Part shown: one piece after another, positions 44,406 to 51,612 of the stretch
Numbering within the stretch: position 1 is the first letter of the stretch
Layout: each line of letters opens with the position of its first letter
Assembly: GCA_027314645.1 (NCBI GenBank)
Contig: DAHVAL010000002.1
Span: 62,001 to 126,000, forward strand
Direction of reading: 5' to 3'
Source of the DNA: Nitrospirota bacterium
Lineage (GTDB): Bacteria > Nitrospirota > Leptospirillia > Leptospirillales > Leptospirillaceae
Length of the DNA stretch: 64,000 nucleotides
The notes under the pieces: model-generated
The model's input: the letters and a program-made list of their open reading frames with translations, nothing else
Databases searched by the model: none
Told to the model about the DNA's origin: nothing
Program-made: the position numbers and the translations under genes

Positions 44406-45772
44406 CAGGGAATGTCTGCGGGAGAAAGGGTGCCTAACGCATAGCGGTATTGGACCAGGGCGGACAGGAGATCGAAGCGGGCCGAGTCCACGTCGACCCT
44501 GGCTCTTCTCAAGGCGGTTTGGGCGTCCACGGCATCCACCGAATGCGCCGTTCCGATGCGGTAGGCCTCTTCGATCAGGCGTTCGTTTTCTTCGGCATTT
44601 TCAAGGGCGGTCTTCGTTTCGCGAAGCCTTTCCCGGGCCTCCCGCACATCCTCGGCGGCATCCCGCACCGAGGCGATGAGCCTCACTTCGTCGTCGTCCT
44701 TCTGATGCATGGACTGCTGGAGGTTCGCCCGGGCTTCATGAATCTGGTGGGTGATCAGGCCTCCTTCGAAAATCGGGACGTTCAAGGCACCCCCGACAGT
44801 GACCGTGGAAAAGGGAGTCGTCGGGATTCCCGGAAAGAATTCGAGGGAGATCTGGGCCAGGTAATATTGGGCCGATCCGGTGATCGACGGATAATTCTGT
44901 TCTTTTGCCGAATCGAGAGAGGCCTTTCGGGTGCGGACCGTTTCGCTGTCAGCCAAAAGTTCCGGGTGGGAGGGAAGATATTTCGAAATATCTCCTTCCG
45001 GGTTGACCTCGACATGGACGGTTTCCCCGGACGGATCGCATGCGACGAACGGCTCCTTGTGGCGGAATCCGATGGCGCGACCGAGATCCACCTGGGATTT
45101 CCTCAGACCGGTCATTTCATGGATCAGGGCGAGCCGGGCGGATTCATAATTGACTTTGGCTTGCGTCACGTCGAGCCTCAAGCCCACCCCTGCCGCCAGG
45201 CGGGCACGGGCTTCATCCAGATGGGAAGAGGCGTCGACAAGACTTTGGCGGGCCGAAAGAACCCGGTGCTGGGCCTTGAGCAGATCGAAGTAGGCCACCT
45301 CCACATCCCGGACCACCCCCTGAACCGTCCGTTGGTTTTGGGCCTGGACCGATCTGAGCTGATGGTGACTCTGTTGCACCTGAGAGTGGACGCGTCCGAA
45401 GTCCAGAATGGTCTGGGTCAGTCCGACCGTCAGAAGATTGTAGTTTGCAAACTGATACCCCGGAAATAGAAAGTATCCGAAAATGCTGTTTCCATAGGTA
45501 TCCGCCCAGGACGCCGAGAGATTCGGAAAATATCCGGCCTTCGACTCCCCCACCCGCTCCTTCGACGCCACGACCTGGTCCGAAAATGCCTTGAGAGAGG
45601 GTCGGCGTTGAAGGGCCTCACGAATGGAGTCCTGAAGCGATATGGGACGCCCGTTCGCCGCCCCATCCGCATCCATGGAGCTTTCTCCCGACACATCCGC
45701 CAAGGCGGAAGCCGTCCCAGTCGCGAGAGATACCGCCGTCACACACCCGACCAATAACCTCCAATATTTCAC
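44405..45772 (-). CDS. tolC: TolC-family outer-membrane efflux protein
   Basis: Outer-membrane channel partner of the EmrAB-type pump encoded just upstream. The 455-residue product has a signal peptide (hydrophobic 8-25) and two repeats of the OEP helical/barrel fold. [20 protein letters not shown] and [20 protein letters not shown] sit at equivalent places in each half, the usual TolC family pattern. The start is GTG overlapping the emrB stop (GTGA). Its end overlaps rnhA. Confidence 0.9.
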
Positions 45773-47376
45773 TCGATCCCTCCATGCACGACTTCAGGTT
45801 GAGACGGCCCCCTCCCGGGAACCGCCGGGTTCCGGTGGGACAGCCTTCTCATGAGAAGAATCATGGGAATTCCAAGCAGAGCCATGGTGCCGGCGATGAT
45901 GAACGTTTCATTGTAGGCCGAAATGGAGGATTGCCTCCGGGCCGCCCCGATCACCATCGCACCAACGCGCGCGGGGACATTGGCTCCTCCGCCATGCTGG
46001 ACGGACAGCGTGAAGAAATCCACCACCCGCTGATAAAAATAGGAATGATGCGTCACATTTCCCTGGTACCGACTGTAGAAATCGGCTTGCCGATGGTCCA
46101 GGATGTTCCCGAGGATGGCCACCCCCAAGGCTCCTCCGATTTGAAGCATGTTGCTCTGCAGGCTCGAGGCAAGCCCGATGTGACGCGGTTCGACCAGCGT
46201 CTGGGGAATGGAAGAAAGCAGGGCATTCAACATCCCCATCGAGAGACCGAAGACCAGCTGGGCCACGATCAGCTGGGACACCTTCGGAACCCCCATCAGA
46301 AAGGCGAAGAGGTACTGGGAAAATGCGAGCATGAGGAAGCCGCTGACGAGCAGAACCCTTTTGAACCTGTCCGACCCTTTGGCGGATATGGCCCCCAACA
46401 CCGGCATGGCGATCCCGGCCATGATGGAGGAGGGCAAGAGGACAAGTCCCGCGTCTGTGGCCGTAAAGGCGTTGAAGGTCTGGACAAAGAGAGGAAGGAG
46501 GAACATCCGGCCGAAGAGGCCGACCGCACGGAAGAAATTGGCGACCATGATCAGGGAAAAATCCAGGTCCCGAAAAATGGTCAGATCGATGAGGGGATGC
46601 CGGACTCCAAAGGCAGTGATGATATACACCCAAAAAGCGATGGCCGAGACCGCCCAGCATTCATAGACAAAGGTGGCCGTCCACCCCCACCTTTCCCCTT
46701 CGGTAAGGCCCACAAGGAGGAAGGAAAGGGCCGTTCCCAACGAGATGAACCCTGCATAGTCAAACGGAACAATATGGTGGGCCCTGTCTTTCTTCAGGAT
46801 GAAAAAGGTGAAGAAAAAACTCAGGAATCCGAATGGGACATTGATGAAGAAGACGTCCCGCCAGTTGAAGTTATCGACAAGCCACCCTCCCAAGATCGGC
46901 CCGATCGTGGGAGCAAGGACCACCACAATCCCAAAAAAACCGAAGGCCTTCGGACGCTCGGGCGGGGGAAAAGCCTCGGTGATGATCGTAAAGCCGAGCG
47001 GCATCATGATGCCGCCCCCGACCGCCTGGAGGATGCGGAAAACGATCATGATGTCCAAATTGGGGGAGATCCCGGCGAGGAAAGAGGACAGGACGAAGAG
47101 AAAGACCGACCCCAGATAGAGGTTCTTGATTCCAAAGACGGTCCGGACCCAGGCGCTGGCAAGGGTGCTCACGGCAAACGCCATGGAATAGGCGGTAATG
47201 ACCCATCGAACTTCGTCCTGATTCGTATCCAGGCTTCCCATCATGTAGGGAAGGGCGACATTGACGATCGTCGTATCGAGGACGGGAAGGAAGAGGGACA
47301 GCATCACCACTGCCAGGGCCCACCAGCGGTAATGGGGGGACTCCCCGACCAGGCTTCCATCGTCCGCCGTCACCAT
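45769..47376 (-). CDS. emrB: MFS drug efflux transporter, DHA2 (EmrB/QacA) family
   Basis: Inner-membrane proton-drug antiporter with about 14 helices in 535 residues. Family motifs are VLDTTIVNVALPYMMG in helix 1, WVITAYSMAFAV in helix 2, the RILQAVGGGIMMPLG motif, and GPILGGWLVDNFNWRDVFFINVP (motif C and the following loop). I set the start at ATG 47376, seven bases inside the end of emrA; the long upstream extension is the opposite frame of emrA. Drug or ion specificity cannot be read from sequence. Confidence 0.93.
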   Translation of the reverse strand: MVTADDGSLVGESPHYRWWALAVVMLSLFLPVLDTTIVNVALPYMMGSLDTNQDEVRWVITAYSMAFAVSTLASAWVRTVFGIKNLYLGSVFLFVLSSFLAGISPNLDIMIVFRILQAVGGGIMMPLGFTIITEAFPPPERPKAFGFFGIVVVLAPTIGPILGGWLVDNFNWRDVFFINVPFGFLSFFFTFFILKKDRAHHIVPFDYAGFISLGTALSFLLVGLTEGERWGWTATFVYECWAVSAIAFWVYIITAFGVRHPLIDLTIFRDLDFSLIMVANFFRAVGLFGRMFLLPLFVQTFNAFTATDAGLVLLPSSIMAGIAMPVLGAISAKGSDRFKRVLLVSGFLMLAFSQYLFAFLMGVPKVSQLIVAQLVFGLSMGMLNALLSSIPQTLVEPRHIGLASSLQSNMLQIGGALGVAILGNILDHRQADFYSRYQGNVTHHSYFYQRVVDFFTLSVQHGGGANVPARVGAMVIGAARRQSSISAYNETFIIAGTMALLGIPMILLMRRLSHRNPAVPGRGPSQPEVVHGGIE

Positions 47377-48332
47377 GGAGAACCTTCCCGGACATGTATG
47401 CGGACCTCGGTGGAGAAACCGGGCCGGAGCACCACATCCTGGGCGTCGTCGATGTTGATCCGCACCGGCACGCGCTGCGTCACCTTCACGAAGGTTCCCG
47501 AGGCGTTCTCCGGAGGAAGAAGGGAAATGGCCGCGGCCGAGGTCGGGAGGATCTGAAACACGTGCCCATGGAAGGCCCGGCCGGGATAGGCGTCGATGGT
47601 GATGTCCACTTTTTGCCCGATCCGAACCTTTCCCATCCGGGTCTCTTTCACCTTCGCCGTCACCCATGTGTCTTTGGGGTCCACCAGAGACACGACCGCC
47701 TGTCCCCGGGATACCACCTGCCCCACCTGGGCGATCCGCTCAGCAACCTGGCCGTCGAGGGGAGAATGGATCGTGTAGTTGAGGGGATGGGATTCGGTCG
47801 TTTCCAGGGCAGTGCGGTTGACGAATTCGAGTTTTTTGAGTTCGGCCAGTTGGGACTTGAGATCTTGGTAGGCCGTCCTCAGGTGATCGAGGTCGGACTC
47901 GGTGATGAATCCGCCTTTTTTGAGCGCTTCTCCACGTTCCAGATCCCGCTTGGCATTGGCCATTCGAACCGAAAGCGAGACCTCTTCGGCTTTCGTCCTC
48001 TCAAGCTCCCCGAAGGCGGAGACATTCCTCTGCCCGATGGATTGGAGGGCGGAAAATCCCGTCGTGTCGATGCGGGCCAAAAGATCTCCCTTGTGGACCG
48101 GGTCCCCGATATTGACCGGGAGCGTCATCACACGGCCTTGCATATTCGCCGATACCAGGACGATGTTTCCATCCACCATGGCGTCCTCGGTCGACACGTA
48201 AAACGAGCTATAGTACGTGTAGCCGAGAATCACCCCTGCGGTCACGATGAGGCCGGCCCCTCCGATGATCAAGCCTATCCTTCTCCGGGAGGCCGGAACA
48301 GGGGGAGTGGCAACCTGGGCGGCCCCGGTCAT
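47370..48332 (-). CDS. emrA: HlyD/EmrA family periplasmic adaptor
   Basis: Membrane-fusion protein that links EmrB to TolC. The 320-residue product has one N-terminal transmembrane helix (residues 18-40), a split biotinyl-lipoyl domain (VDGNIVLVSANMQGRVMTLP; IHSPLDGQVAERIAQVGQVV), a helical hairpin of about 80 residues between them, and a beta-barrel (WVTAKVKETRMGKVRIGQ). The ATG overlaps the cytochrome gene stop (ATGA), and its own stop overlaps emrB. Confidence 0.93.
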   Translation of the reverse strand: MTGAAQVATPPVPASRRRIGLIIGGAGLIVTAGVILGYTYYSSFYVSTEDAMVDGNIVLVSANMQGRVMTLPVNIGDPVHKGDLLARIDTTGFSALQSIGQRNVSAFGELERTKAEEVSLSVRMANAKRDLERGEALKKGGFITESDLDHLRTAYQDLKSQLAELKKLEFVNRTALETTESHPLNYTIHSPLDGQVAERIAQVGQVVSRGQAVVSLVDPKDTWVTAKVKETRMGKVRIGQKVDITIDAYPGRAFHGHVFQILPTSAAAISLLPPENASGTFVKVTQRVPVRINIDDAQDVVLRPGFSTEVRIHVREGSPW

Positions 48333-48928
48333 GGTTCACCTCCCATCTCCACGGTTTCCTTCTTGTATTCCTTCGGGATGGGGTGGGCAATTCTGGCCCG
48401 GGCGGTGTGGTAATCGAACCCCTTGAAGGTTGGCGAGGCAGGGTTGTGGCATGTCTTGCAGGTATTTTCATCAGGACGAAGGACCAACCCGGCGAGTTTG
48501 GACTTGCTTCTGTTGATCATCACGGAAAAGTGCGCGTAATCTTCTCCCGGCCCGTGGCAGGATTCGCACTGGACCCCATCCGTCATGCGAAATGTGGAGA
48601 GTATTTCCGGAAGAGGCTTCCGATAGGCGGTCACATGGCAGGAGAGGCAACGACCATCCTTGGCGGGATTGGCGATCTTCAGACGAGAGGCGATTTCCCG
48701 GGCCTTTGGAGTCAGGAGGTCTTGGTAGGCGCGCGCGTGAGGGCTTGCCGCCCAGACGAAGAATTGGCGCCCGATCCGCTGGGAGGAATGGCATATCTCG
48801 CAGGTTTCGACCCCGACGTACCGGTGCAAAATCGAATCAGCCCGGGCATGAACCGATTCCAGCAAAGCCCCTGCTCCGCCCGCCACGAGCAGCATTACGG
48901 CCACCACACCCTGTCTCAACCTTCTCAT
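48329..48928 (-). CDS. Exported tetraheme c-type cytochrome (cytochrome c554-like)
   Basis: A 199-residue protein with an N-terminal signal or anchor (residues 7-30) and four CxxCH haem-binding motifs: CEICH (43-47), CLSCH (94-98), CESCH (121-125) and CKTCH (157-161). The CESCHGPG and SPHARAY segments resemble the cytochrome c554/multihaem family. It should lie in the periplasm, soluble or membrane-tethered. It overlaps tetR upstream and emrA downstream by 4 bases each (ATGA both times), so it is translationally locked into the efflux operon. Its redox partner is unknown. Confidence 0.9.
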   Translation of the reverse strand: MRRLRQGVVAVMLLVAGGAGALLESVHARADSILHRYVGVETCEICHSSQRIGRQFFVWAASPHARAYQDLLTPKAREIASRLKIANPAKDGRCLSCHVTAYRKPLPEILSTFRMTDGVQCESCHGPGEDYAHFSVMINRSKSKLAGLVLRPDENTCKTCHNPASPTFKGFDYHTARARIAHPIPKEYKKETVEMGGEP

Positions 48929-49674
48929 CCTTTTTTACCATCCTTTTCCACCTGAATTGTTTGGTCCAGAGCCTGATCCATCCCATCGATTCCCGCGATG
49001 AAATGGTCCACAAGGGTTCGCAGAAAAAGTTCCCGGTCGAGGGTCCGAACGCGATGGCCAAGAAGAAGATCCTGGAACAGAAAGACCGAGACGATCGGTC
49101 CCAGGAAAAATGCGTCCTTCATGTCCGTACTTCGGTCCCGGGCACCGGAGGACACCAGATATTTTTCAAGAAGACGGGAGAATCGGTCCATCGAGAGTTC
49201 CATGATGAGCCGGGGAAAGAGCGGTTCGCTTTCTTCATCTAAAAGGCGGTACTCGGTCAGGAGAATTCGGAGGACATTCCGGTTTCTCTCCAGACCTTCG
49301 AAGGTGGCCTGCCCCAATTCGAGAAGAAATTTGCGGAAGCTGACTTTGTCCGGAGGATGGCGGTCGAATTCGGGTTCCCATCGGGCGTAACATTGTTGGG
49401 CAGGAGAGGACTCACTGTTGAACTTTTCCAGGATGATTTCCTGAAGAAGCGCTTTCTTGCTCGGAAAATAATGATAGATGAGACCCTCGGTGATTCCCGC
49501 CTTCCTTGCGATCTTGCGGTTCGTCGTCTGGAAATACCCCTCGTCCGCAAAGCATGAGAGAGCGGCTTCAAGGATCTCCCGCTTTCTCTGCGCACAACGG
49601 TCCAGTGGTTCCTCTCCCCTTTTGACTGCTCCCCTGTCCATGACTGAAGGTTGCTTCGACCGCTGTTCCGCCAT
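48925..49674 (-). CDS. TetR/AcrR family transcriptional regulator
   Basis: A 249-residue repressor. The N-terminal helix-turn-helix is clear: KREILEAALSCFADEGYFQTT, NRKIARKAGITEGLIYHYF, PSKKALLQEII. The remaining 180 residues are the helical ligand-binding domain, with no ligand assignable. It is the first gene of the efflux operon, with AAAGGA before its ATG. A perfect 20-base palindrome covers the predicted transcription start, so autorepression and control of the whole pump operon are very likely. Confidence 0.92.
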   Translation of the reverse strand: MAEQRSKQPSVMDRGAVKRGEEPLDRCAQRKREILEAALSCFADEGYFQTTNRKIARKAGITEGLIYHYFPSKKALLQEIILEKFNSESSPAQQCYARWEPEFDRHPPDKVSFRKFLLELGQATFEGLERNRNVLRILLTEYRLLDEESEPLFPRLIMELSMDRFSRLLEKYLVSSGARDRSTDMKDAFFLGPIVSVFLFQDLLLGHRVRTLDRELFLRTLVDHFIAGIDGMDQALDQTIQVEKDGKKG

Positions 49675-49784: not shown

Positions 49785-49793
49785 TGGTATAAT
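49785..49793 (+). promoter_or_regulatory. Extended -10 promoter of the MNIO gene
   Basis: TGGTATAAT, a perfect TATAAT with the TGn extension, lies 20 bases before the MNIO start codon. No good -35 box is seen 17 bases upstream, as is usual for extended -10 promoters. The leader would be only about 14 bases. Confidence 0.65.
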
Positions 49794-49813
49794 TCCCTTC
49801 GACTGGCATCCCG

Positions 49814-51220
49814 ATGTCGAAACCCGTGTCCACCTCTTCAGGAATTCATCCATTGATCCATGCCTCTTCGATAAAGGACTCGTCCATCCCGCCATTGACC
49901 GGTTCCGAACAGCGGCCGCGCCCAAGAATCGGGTTGTCCACCGACCTCTACTTTCCTCCCCTTGCCCTCCTCCTTGAGGCCCTGAAGAAGGGGCCCTCCC
50001 CTGAATACCTGGAGATCTTCAGGGGGCGGACGGAAGATCTCACCCGGGCCAGGACGGAGATTCCACGGGAAATCCCCTTGGCCTACCATGGAGACTGCCT
50101 GTGGTATACGCAAGCCGATTTTTTGGATAATCCCGCCTATCGCTCCGAGGTTGGACGCGCCGTCCGGCATATGGACGCTCTTGAGGCTCCATGGATGATT
50201 CACGAGTGCGCCCAGAAGATGATGGAAGGATTCGCCTTTGGGCTCTATGCTCCCCCCCTTCTGACGGAAGAGGGGGCCACGGCCGCAAGAAATGGGGCCC
50301 TCTTCCTTCAGGAAGCCCTCGGAGAACGCCAGCTCCTCGTTGAAACTCCCCCGTTCCCCCCCCATCCCGCAGGCCGAATGGACCTCGGAGAATTCTTTTG
50401 GCGTATCACCCAGGACACCTCCATGGGGATCGGCTTGGACCTTGGCCATTGCATGACCTATCTCGCCCTCTCGAGGAGAAATCCCACTCCGGCCTCTCTC
50501 ATGGACTGGCTCCGACACTCATTTCCCCTCGAACGGGTGGTCGAAATCCACGTGGGAGGACTGGCCCAAAGGATTCTGGGCGAGGAGACCATCCTAGTCG
50601 ATGACCACACCCACCCCGTTCCCGATCTCTTATTCGACTCCCTGGAAGCCGTCTTGGACAGCCTCGACCTTCCGTCCCTCGCCGGCGTGGCCCTCGAGGT
50701 GGACAACAAGGCCATCCCCCTGATTATTCGGGAGTTCGCACGTTTCTTCGATATCGTGGAGCGGAAGGGGCGACCGGTCGTCCCCGGAGCCCGGCTCGGA
50801 CCGAGGAGACTCCCGTCCCCTCTCACCCCGGTGGAGGAACGGACCCTTCGGGAAGGATATGCGAGTCTGGGCCGCGACATGGTCGAGAACCTGGCTTCCC
50901 CTTACCGTCGGCACCTTTATCCGGAGGAAATATGGACCTTTGGAGGGGCGATGCCCGATCTCTTCCCGGAGACCCTGTCCCTTCTGTCCGTCATGGGTCT
51001 TGATGCCCGCTCCTCCTTCATTGCATTTTTCAACCGCGATCCCTCATCCTTGCTTCAATCCATGGACTTTCTCGAGGTGAAGATCATTCGTGCCCTCGCA
51101 TGGATCAAGGAGCTTGCCGACGGCCGGGGAGAGGCCTTTTCGACGATCCTTCGCACCGCCGAACGGGAAGCATCGCTCCTTCTTTCGGCCCAACACCAAT
51201 TCAATGGAGACTCCCTATGA
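49814..51220 (+). CDS. MNIO (DUF692) family multinuclear iron enzyme with C-terminal extension
   Basis: TIM-barrel protein of the DUF692/MNIO family, whose characterised members (for example MbnB) use iron clusters to modify cysteines in peptides. Candidate metal ligands are all visible: H92 (YHGD), H130 (MIHE), E177 (VETPP), D209 and H212 (GLDLGH), H246 (EIHVGG), D264, H265 and H267 (DDHTH) and E295 (LEVDN). At 468 residues it is much longer than the usual 280; residues 330-468 form an unassigned helical extension. Its stop overlaps the start of a lipoprotein gene (ATGA). The substrate is unknown. Confidence 0.8.
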   Translation: MSKPVSTSSGIHPLIHASSIKDSSIPPLTGSEQRPRPRIGLSTDLYFPPLALLLEALKKGPSPEYLEIFRGRTEDLTRARTEIPREIPLAYHGDCLWYTQADFLDNPAYRSEVGRAVRHMDALEAPWMIHECAQKMMEGFAFGLYAPPLLTEEGATAARNGALFLQEALGERQLLVETPPFPPHPAGRMDLGEFFWRITQDTSMGIGLDLGHCMTYLALSRRNPTPASLMDWLRHSFPLERVVEIHVGGLAQRILGEETILVDDHTHPVPDLLFDSLEAVLDSLDLPSLAGVALEVDNKAIPLIIREFARFFDIVERKGRPVVPGARLGPRRLPSPLTPVEERTLREGYASLGRDMVENLASPYRRHLYPEEIWTFGGAMPDLFPETLSLLSVMGLDARSSFIAFFNRDPSSLLQSMDFLEVKIIRALAWIKELADGRGEAFSTILRTAEREASLLLSAQHQFNGDSL

Positions 51221-51612
51221 CCCGCTCCCCTGTCAGGCACCTTTTCGTGTTCCTGCTCCCGTTCATCGTTGCCGCCTGCCATCCGGTCGTTATGGCGCCT
51301 TCTCCTTCTTCCGAGTCGACCATGGCCAGATTCCAGGGCCAGATGCTCTGGGATAAGACGCCGATCGGAAAAGCCGCGATATTTTTGCGTCCCCTGCCCC
51401 AAAAGGGAGACGAGATCGAGTTTAGGACGCGAACGGATGGGCGGTTCGACCTTCCCCTTGCCCCCGGCCGTTACAGCCTCCGTTCCTCCCCCACGACGAT
51501 GTGCCCGGTGAAGGGGACGATCGAGATCACCCAGGGAGTCAACCGTTATCGCCTTTTTGTCCACCCTGTGTCCTTTTTGAGCTGCACCCCCGGAAAGATC
51601 GAGAAGCAATAA
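51217..51612 (+). CDS. Small lipoprotein encoded with the MNIO enzyme
   Basis: A 131-residue predicted lipoprotein: basic start, hydrophobic helix and lipobox IVAAC with the lipidated cysteine at about residue 21. The mature part looks like a small all-beta, carboxypeptidase-regulatory-like domain (GRFDLPLAPGRYSLRSS). It holds only two further cysteines, in TMCPVKG and LSCTPGK. GGAGA lies before the ATG, which overlaps the MNIO stop. No family assigned. The cysteines could be a disulphide or targets of the MNIO enzyme; the latter is speculation. Confidence 0.75.
   Translation: MTRSPVRHLFVFLLPFIVAACHPVVMAPSPSSESTMARFQGQMLWDKTPIGKAAIFLRPLPQKGDEIEFRTRTDGRFDLPLAPGRYSLRSSPTTMCPVKGTIEITQGVNRYRLFVHPVSFLSCTPGKIEKQ

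Follow-up and report, generated by a model that had tools for sequence, protein, structure and literature searches.

A divergent MNIO with a fused helical domain as a core gene of Nitrospira- and Leptospirillum-type bacteria

Background

Most described MNIOs (DUF692 enzymes) belong to peptide gene clusters as accessory enzymes and act together with a separate partner protein. In a Nitrospirota genome (contig DAHVAL010000002.1; the whole stretch of 64,000 nucleotides that was analysed is called the window below) we encountered a putative MNIO gene that has no partner gene beside it, encodes an additional C-terminal region and overlaps with the start of a lipoprotein gene. An earlier note on this locus, made from the sequence, had proposed that the extra region plays the part of the partner and that the lipoprotein represents a new class of substrate. 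The question is therefore on what such an enzyme acts, and whether its neighbour is the answer.

The gene pair

The positions of the two genes and of their main features are given in Table 1. The translational coupling that had been proposed for the pair is found at the level of the sequence, in the form of an ATGA overlap between the MNIO stop and the lipoprotein start. The first residues of the MNIO ORF (1 to about 27-34) are not conserved and the homologues begin near residue 28-35, and the actual start codon may thus lie further in, for example at TTG 49895. The divergently oriented neighbours on the minus strand (45769-49674) include genes for a TetR regulator, a multihaem cytochrome c554-type protein and HlyD-like and MFS efflux proteins; the TetR gene upstream of the MNIO gene is kept across the genus.

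Table 1. Features of the MNIO-lipoprotein gene pair (positions in the window)
Feature	Position	Strand	Basis or remark
MNIO ORF, 468 aa (P0001)	49814-51220	+	
MNIO (DUF692) TIM barrel, residues 1-333	49814-50812	+	Pfam PF05114, hhalign, Foldseek
MNIO Cys132 codon	50207-50209		beside putative metal-ligand motif
D-L-G-H motif (D209, H212); canonical MNIOs D-x-x-N	50438-50449	+	His 48/48 versus Asn 17/17
C-terminal all-helical domain, residues 334-468, fused	50813-51217	+	AF2 model
ATGA shared by MNIO stop and lipoprotein start	51217-51220	+	sequence
Lipoprotein ORF, 131 aa	51217-51612	+	one CarboxypepD_reg-like beta-sandwich domain
Lipobox Cys21 codon	51277-51279	+	invariant in lipoprotein alignment
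Cys96 codon, motif CP[VI]	51502-51504	+	invariant 14/14 and 3 unlinked copies
Cys123 codon	51583-51585	+	invariant 14/14 and 3 unlinked copies

MNIO family membership and metal site

The assignment of the larger protein to the MNIOs, made before on the basis of its sequence, was borne out by several lines of evidence. Pfam family PF05114 matched residues 74-299 (E 6e-10) with 39.2 bits against a cut-off of 25, hhalign aligned the barrel with canonical bufferin MNIOs (probability 98%, E 1.5e-13), and the solved chains matched in a profile search of the PDB sequences included 3bww, TglH and MbnB. The AF2 model, built with 48 natural homologues (pLDDT 91.9, pTM 0.91), consists of a TIM barrel to which seven helices are appended, and the nine PDB chains ranked highest by Foldseek are all MNIOs (TglH, MbnB and 3bww; best match TglH, E 1.6e-12), with endonuclease IV and sugar epimerases following as weaker matches. 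It is the one PF05114 protein found in the genome to which the window belongs. Membership of the MNIO superfamily is well supported by sequence and predicted fold; what we infer beyond it concerns the identity of the metal, the catalysis, cysteine as the target and the role of the helical domain.

The expectation that all metal ligands of the family are present holds only in part. In TglH, Fe1 and Fe2 are bound by H71, H107, E151, D184, H216 and E258 and Fe3 by D184, N187, D229 and H231 (PMC10880893). Of the nine, seven are identical in the MNIO described here (H92, E177, D209, H246, E295, D263 and H265) and invariant in 48/48 sequences, where the equivalences of E177 and E295 were taken from gapless motif matching (VET/IEN and LEVD/IEWD) because the automatic multiple alignment was shifted by one at these sites. 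The other two differ. The equivalent of Asn187 is His212 in all 48 subfamily sequences and in those copies from families f18, f24 and f39 that cover the region, versus Asn at this Fe3 position in 17/17 canonical MNIOs (from plasmids and Nitrospirota). The E-H-L motif around His107 reads H-E-C, or Q-E-C or L-E-C in several f18 members, with E131 and C132 invariant and H130 variable in the subfamily members aligned over this region; the hydrophobic pattern would favour E131 as the counterpart of His107. The invariance of Cys132, next to the putative metal-ligand motif, extends to all subfamily members aligned there, including those of f18, f24 and f39. Judged from these residues, the metal site is not fully of the canonical TglH type, and its chemistry might differ along with the ligands. 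The fixed Asn-to-His change constitutes a natural test of the role of the third iron site.

The C-terminal helical domain

The extra C-terminal region is real: an extension of about 135 residues (about 334-468) is kept in all 48 aligned homologues, with an invariant GG, D, K and E. Modelled alone, it was again predicted to form seven helices (pLDDT 88.4). Comparison of its predicted structure with known MNIO partners, a check proposed beforehand, gave no fold match in the PDB (best E 1.9), and none of the known partners (3dee, TglI, MbnC) was among the 50 best Foldseek matches. Neither was there a PDB sequence match below E 0.03, or a Pfam family with above-chance support in any of the 48 members. 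That the domain is a DUF2063 is improbable on the same grounds, together with an hhalign probability of 0.4% against two alignments of DUF2063 partners, although an insignificant yet collinear alignment does span the DUF2063 length. For PME-type 2 proteins a lack of sequence similarity is known (PMC12452194).

A DUF2063 partner (PF09836) was found neither adjoining the MNIO gene nor elsewhere in the genome of the window nor in any other genome of its family, which agrees with the proposed absence of a separate partner gene. Among the sampled Nitrospirota, DUF2063 proteins and canonical, high-scoring MNIOs occur in one and the same set of 12 genomes. Taken together, these results suggest that the enzyme does not depend on the usual partner, and it is plausible that the helical domain substitutes for a separate partner protein. 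In one genome (G272, L180:6977-8367), the only one of its order with the MNIO gene, barrel and helical domain are encoded in two overlapping frames that are split at the domain boundary; this is either a natural division into enzyme and partner or the result of a frameshift in this single MAG.

Distribution and gene context

The long MNIO was found by whole-genome search in all 21 genomes of the family of the window (the Leptospirillum family, f1, with genera g1 to g5), in 119 of 120 Nitrospiraceae genomes (113/114 when counting those of good quality) and also in f18, f24 and f39. The Nitrospiraceae proteins carry the C-terminal extension as well, and the named relatives with a long MNIO include Leptospirillum and Nitrospira, among the latter N. 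moscoviensis and Ca. N. defluvii. The same search showed the gene to be missing from many other Nitrospirota families. When 84,980 genomes were scanned with sequence patterns, which were themselves specific for this subfamily, the best 80 records were almost exclusively of the Nitrospirota type, and in the genome scan an alignment query retrieved homologues where a single-protein query retrieved none. The matches in a plasmid search were to the barrel only and never covered 80% of the MNIO query. We conclude that bacteria of the Nitrospira and Leptospirillum types have this divergent MNIO, fused helical domain included, among their core genes.

The gene context differs between the families. 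In the Nitrospira-type loci (31 loci) the most common order is MNIO-Dus-Maf-secreted protein, which was noted as conserved for Nitrospira loci L045-L049 and L068-L130 and in which the start of dus (encoding tRNA-dihydrouridine synthase) usually overlaps the stop of the Nitrospiraceae MNIO gene (-3 nt), and the MNIO gene is flanked by a divergent CBS/PilZ gene at a distance of mostly about 145 nt or less. The short upstream gap and the overlap with dus leave no obvious adjacent precursor gene in the Nitrospiraceae. Moreover, as Dus is an implausible substrate, an overlap at the MNIO stop is by itself weak evidence for a relation between enzyme and substrate. In f18 the MNIO gene was found directly downstream of the glutamate synthase genes gltB-gltD (L174-L177, L179 and L181). 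That the gene stays while its context changes by family would fit a core gene with a substrate gene at another locus.

The secreted protein downstream in Nitrospira, of about 220 aa and without a Pfam family, contains two cysteines that are invariant in 53/53 sequences. It was considered as a class-wide substrate and rejected, as it occurs in f18 genomes that gave no match to the MNIO and is lacking in the Leptospirillum family. Some Nitrospirota (L190, L191 and L192) have canonical bufferin clusters (DUF2282-like precursor, MNIO, DUF2063 and DoxX-like) or oxazolin-like lipoprotein clusters; in two genomes (G114 and G122) canonical clusters are found beside the long MNIO, which makes the two separate systems.

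The lipoprotein and its cysteines

The lipoprotein carries a lipobox (LPFIVAAC, judged by eye) that ends in Cys21, a residue invariant in the lipoprotein alignment, and matches PF13620 (CarboxypepD_reg) with E 2e-4, below the cut-off. Its only other cysteines are Cys96 and Cys123, as the earlier note had it, and their conservation across homologues, which that note had put forward as a check, is complete: neither Cys96, which precedes Pro97, nor Cys123 varies in any of the 14 aligned homologues or of the three unlinked copies. The two residues are 27 positions apart in a domain predicted to be of the beta-sandwich type. In genera g2 to g5 a two-domain form occurs that has the cysteine pair in each half, and the number of non-lipid cysteines in the mature protein is always 2 or 4, as would be expected for disulfides.

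The lipoprotein gene was found in 19 of the 21 genomes of the Leptospirillum family; the two exceptions are genomes whose contig breaks off within the MNIO gene or shortly behind it. The adjacency of the pair in other genomes, on which the proposal of an enzyme and its substrate had been made to depend, stood in four genera (g1, g2, g4 and g5; 16/16 testable loci, 15 of them with an overlapping start option for the lipoprotein) and was lacking only in the fifth (g3), in which the lipoprotein is present but unlinked, at a distance of about 1.3 Mb from the MNIO gene in a single-contig genome (G015). Within the family, the proposal thus withstood both refuting conditions that the earlier note had named. 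The search of Nitrospiraceae and f18 genomes yielded no credible homologue, so that the lipoprotein was found only in the Leptospirillum family.

Functional interpretation

The reading that we favour, and to which we would give an even chance, is that of an MNIO subfamily without a separate partner that acts on a class-wide substrate encoded elsewhere, while the cysteines of the lipoprotein form a disulfide. The enzyme would be a cytosolic TIM-barrel protein that uses a multinuclear, probably iron-containing, site to oxidise one residue, most likely a cysteine, in a protein or peptide, and the fused helical domain would take the place of the separate partner of other MNIOs. The MNIO gene would be an ancestral core gene of the Nitrospira and Leptospirillum lineages, in which case its main substrate should occur in all these lineages, with a gene at a different locus from that of the enzyme. 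The lipoprotein would be an operon mate in the Leptospirillum family only and possibly an extra client, modified before export; its invariant cysteine pair may equally be an ordinary disulfide. The conserved overlapping pair in four genera counts against the favoured reading, as this is what an enzyme and its substrate would look like.

We consider it possible, albeit rather doubtful, that the lipoprotein is the true substrate, or one of them. The cytosolic MNIO would then oxidise Cys96 and/or Cys123 during synthesis of the protein, after which the protein would be exported and lipidated via Sec, Lgt and LspA to give a product that perhaps binds copper. The unbroken adjacency and frequent overlap in four genera, the co-presence in the fifth despite the lack of linkage, and the invariance of both cysteines, also in the two halves of the two-domain forms, are all consistent with this role, and the modification of lipoproteins by MNIOs before export has been established for DybA and NedA (PMC12636315). 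Proteins of >30 kDa have been documented as MNIO substrates too (PMC12636315), which weakens the suggestion of a new substrate class. Its role as a target is doubtful because most relatives of the MNIO occur without it: the enzyme is kept in nearly all Nitrospiraceae genomes, whereas the lipoprotein was found in none of those searched and therefore is not the general substrate. In addition, the same type of overlap joins the MNIO gene to dus in the Nitrospiraceae, the cysteines are located far apart in a predicted folded domain instead of in a short motif, and their even numbers fit disulfides.

An unlikely combination of both roles is that the core MNIO, with its altered metal site and built-in helper, modifies a conserved protein of Nitrospira and Leptospirillum in a way not yet described and, in the Leptospirillum family, also modifies the cysteine pair inside the folded lipoprotein domain. 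If true, MNIO chemistry would serve a housekeeping purpose with folded proteins as substrates.

It is more improbable still that the barrel has been repurposed and, with the changes of Asn to His and of His to Glu (or Cys), has given up MNIO chemistry on peptides in favour of a small-molecule or nucleic-acid substrate, like the related xylose-isomerase-like barrels. The invariant H212 at the Fe3 Asn position and the invariant E131-C132 next to a variable H130 would agree with such a change, and so would the loss or reduction of activity in HvfB N175A and TglH N187A (PMC13419390, PMC10880893), the weaker Foldseek matches to endonuclease IV and epimerases and the Nitrospiraceae context with the tRNA-modifying Dus and with Maf. 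However, none of the other ligands varies, only MNIOs are found among the nine best fold matches, and iron can be bound by His in place of Asn. That the pair reflects an accidental neighbourhood or mis-called ORFs is hardly credible, since ORFs and overlaps are conserved in many independent genomes and nothing was found in favour of it.

Returning to the favoured reading of a core enzyme with a distant substrate, we found no papers in the open-licence literature that link MNIO or DUF692 with Nitrospira or Leptospirillum, and the subfamily is apparently undescribed. Partner-independent MNIOs (MovX) and large-protein and lipoprotein substrates were already known (PMC12452194, PMC12636315). The relevance of the subfamily lies in its being near-universal in nitrite-oxidising and iron-oxidising Nitrospirota, without a DUF2063 partner and mostly without a precursor gene beside it; the identity of its substrate would tell whether MNIO chemistry also has a housekeeping role.

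Comparison with known systems

With TglH, MbnB and HvfB/BufB the enzyme shares the TIM barrel, most of the metal ligands and the lack of a signal peptide. It differs from them in its modest Pfam match (39 bits), the change of the Fe3 Asn to His and of EHL to [HQL]EC, the fused helical domain, and the lack of a DUF2063 partner and, in most genomes, of an adjacent precursor gene. MovX, an MNIO that needs no partner and has an extra winged-helix domain (PMC12452194), is similar in being partner-independent and in having an extra domain within one polypeptide, but the extra domain described here is all-helical in the model and there is no short methanobactin-like substrate next door. A fused C-terminal helper is also present in the single-chain MNIO-DUF2063 fusion of 598 aa that we found beside a DUF2282 bufferin gene on plasmid p4 of Rhizobium bangladeshense (L244:935-2731). 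Its helper, however, is a clear DUF2063 (E 1.5e-18), whereas no DUF2063 is detectable in the Nitrospirota extension.

For the pair as a whole, the closest parallel is found in the DAG-RiPPs (DybA/DybH and NedA/NedBC; PMC12636315), in which an MNIO is likewise encoded beside a cysteine-bearing lipoprotein, and in which modification precedes lipidation (PMC12636315). The lipobox cysteine and the conserved cysteines in a lipoprotein adjoining an MNIO were found here as well (16 loci). The targets in DAG-RiPPs are short C-terminal or repeat motifs, whereas the two cysteines of the Leptospirillum-family protein are distant from each other in a domain that, from sequence comparison, appears to be of the beta-sandwich type. 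The likely fold class of this lipoprotein is that of the CarboxypepD_reg domains (PF13620), such as the repeats of NOMO, from which it differs in a match below the Pfam cut-off and in its invariant CP...C pair.
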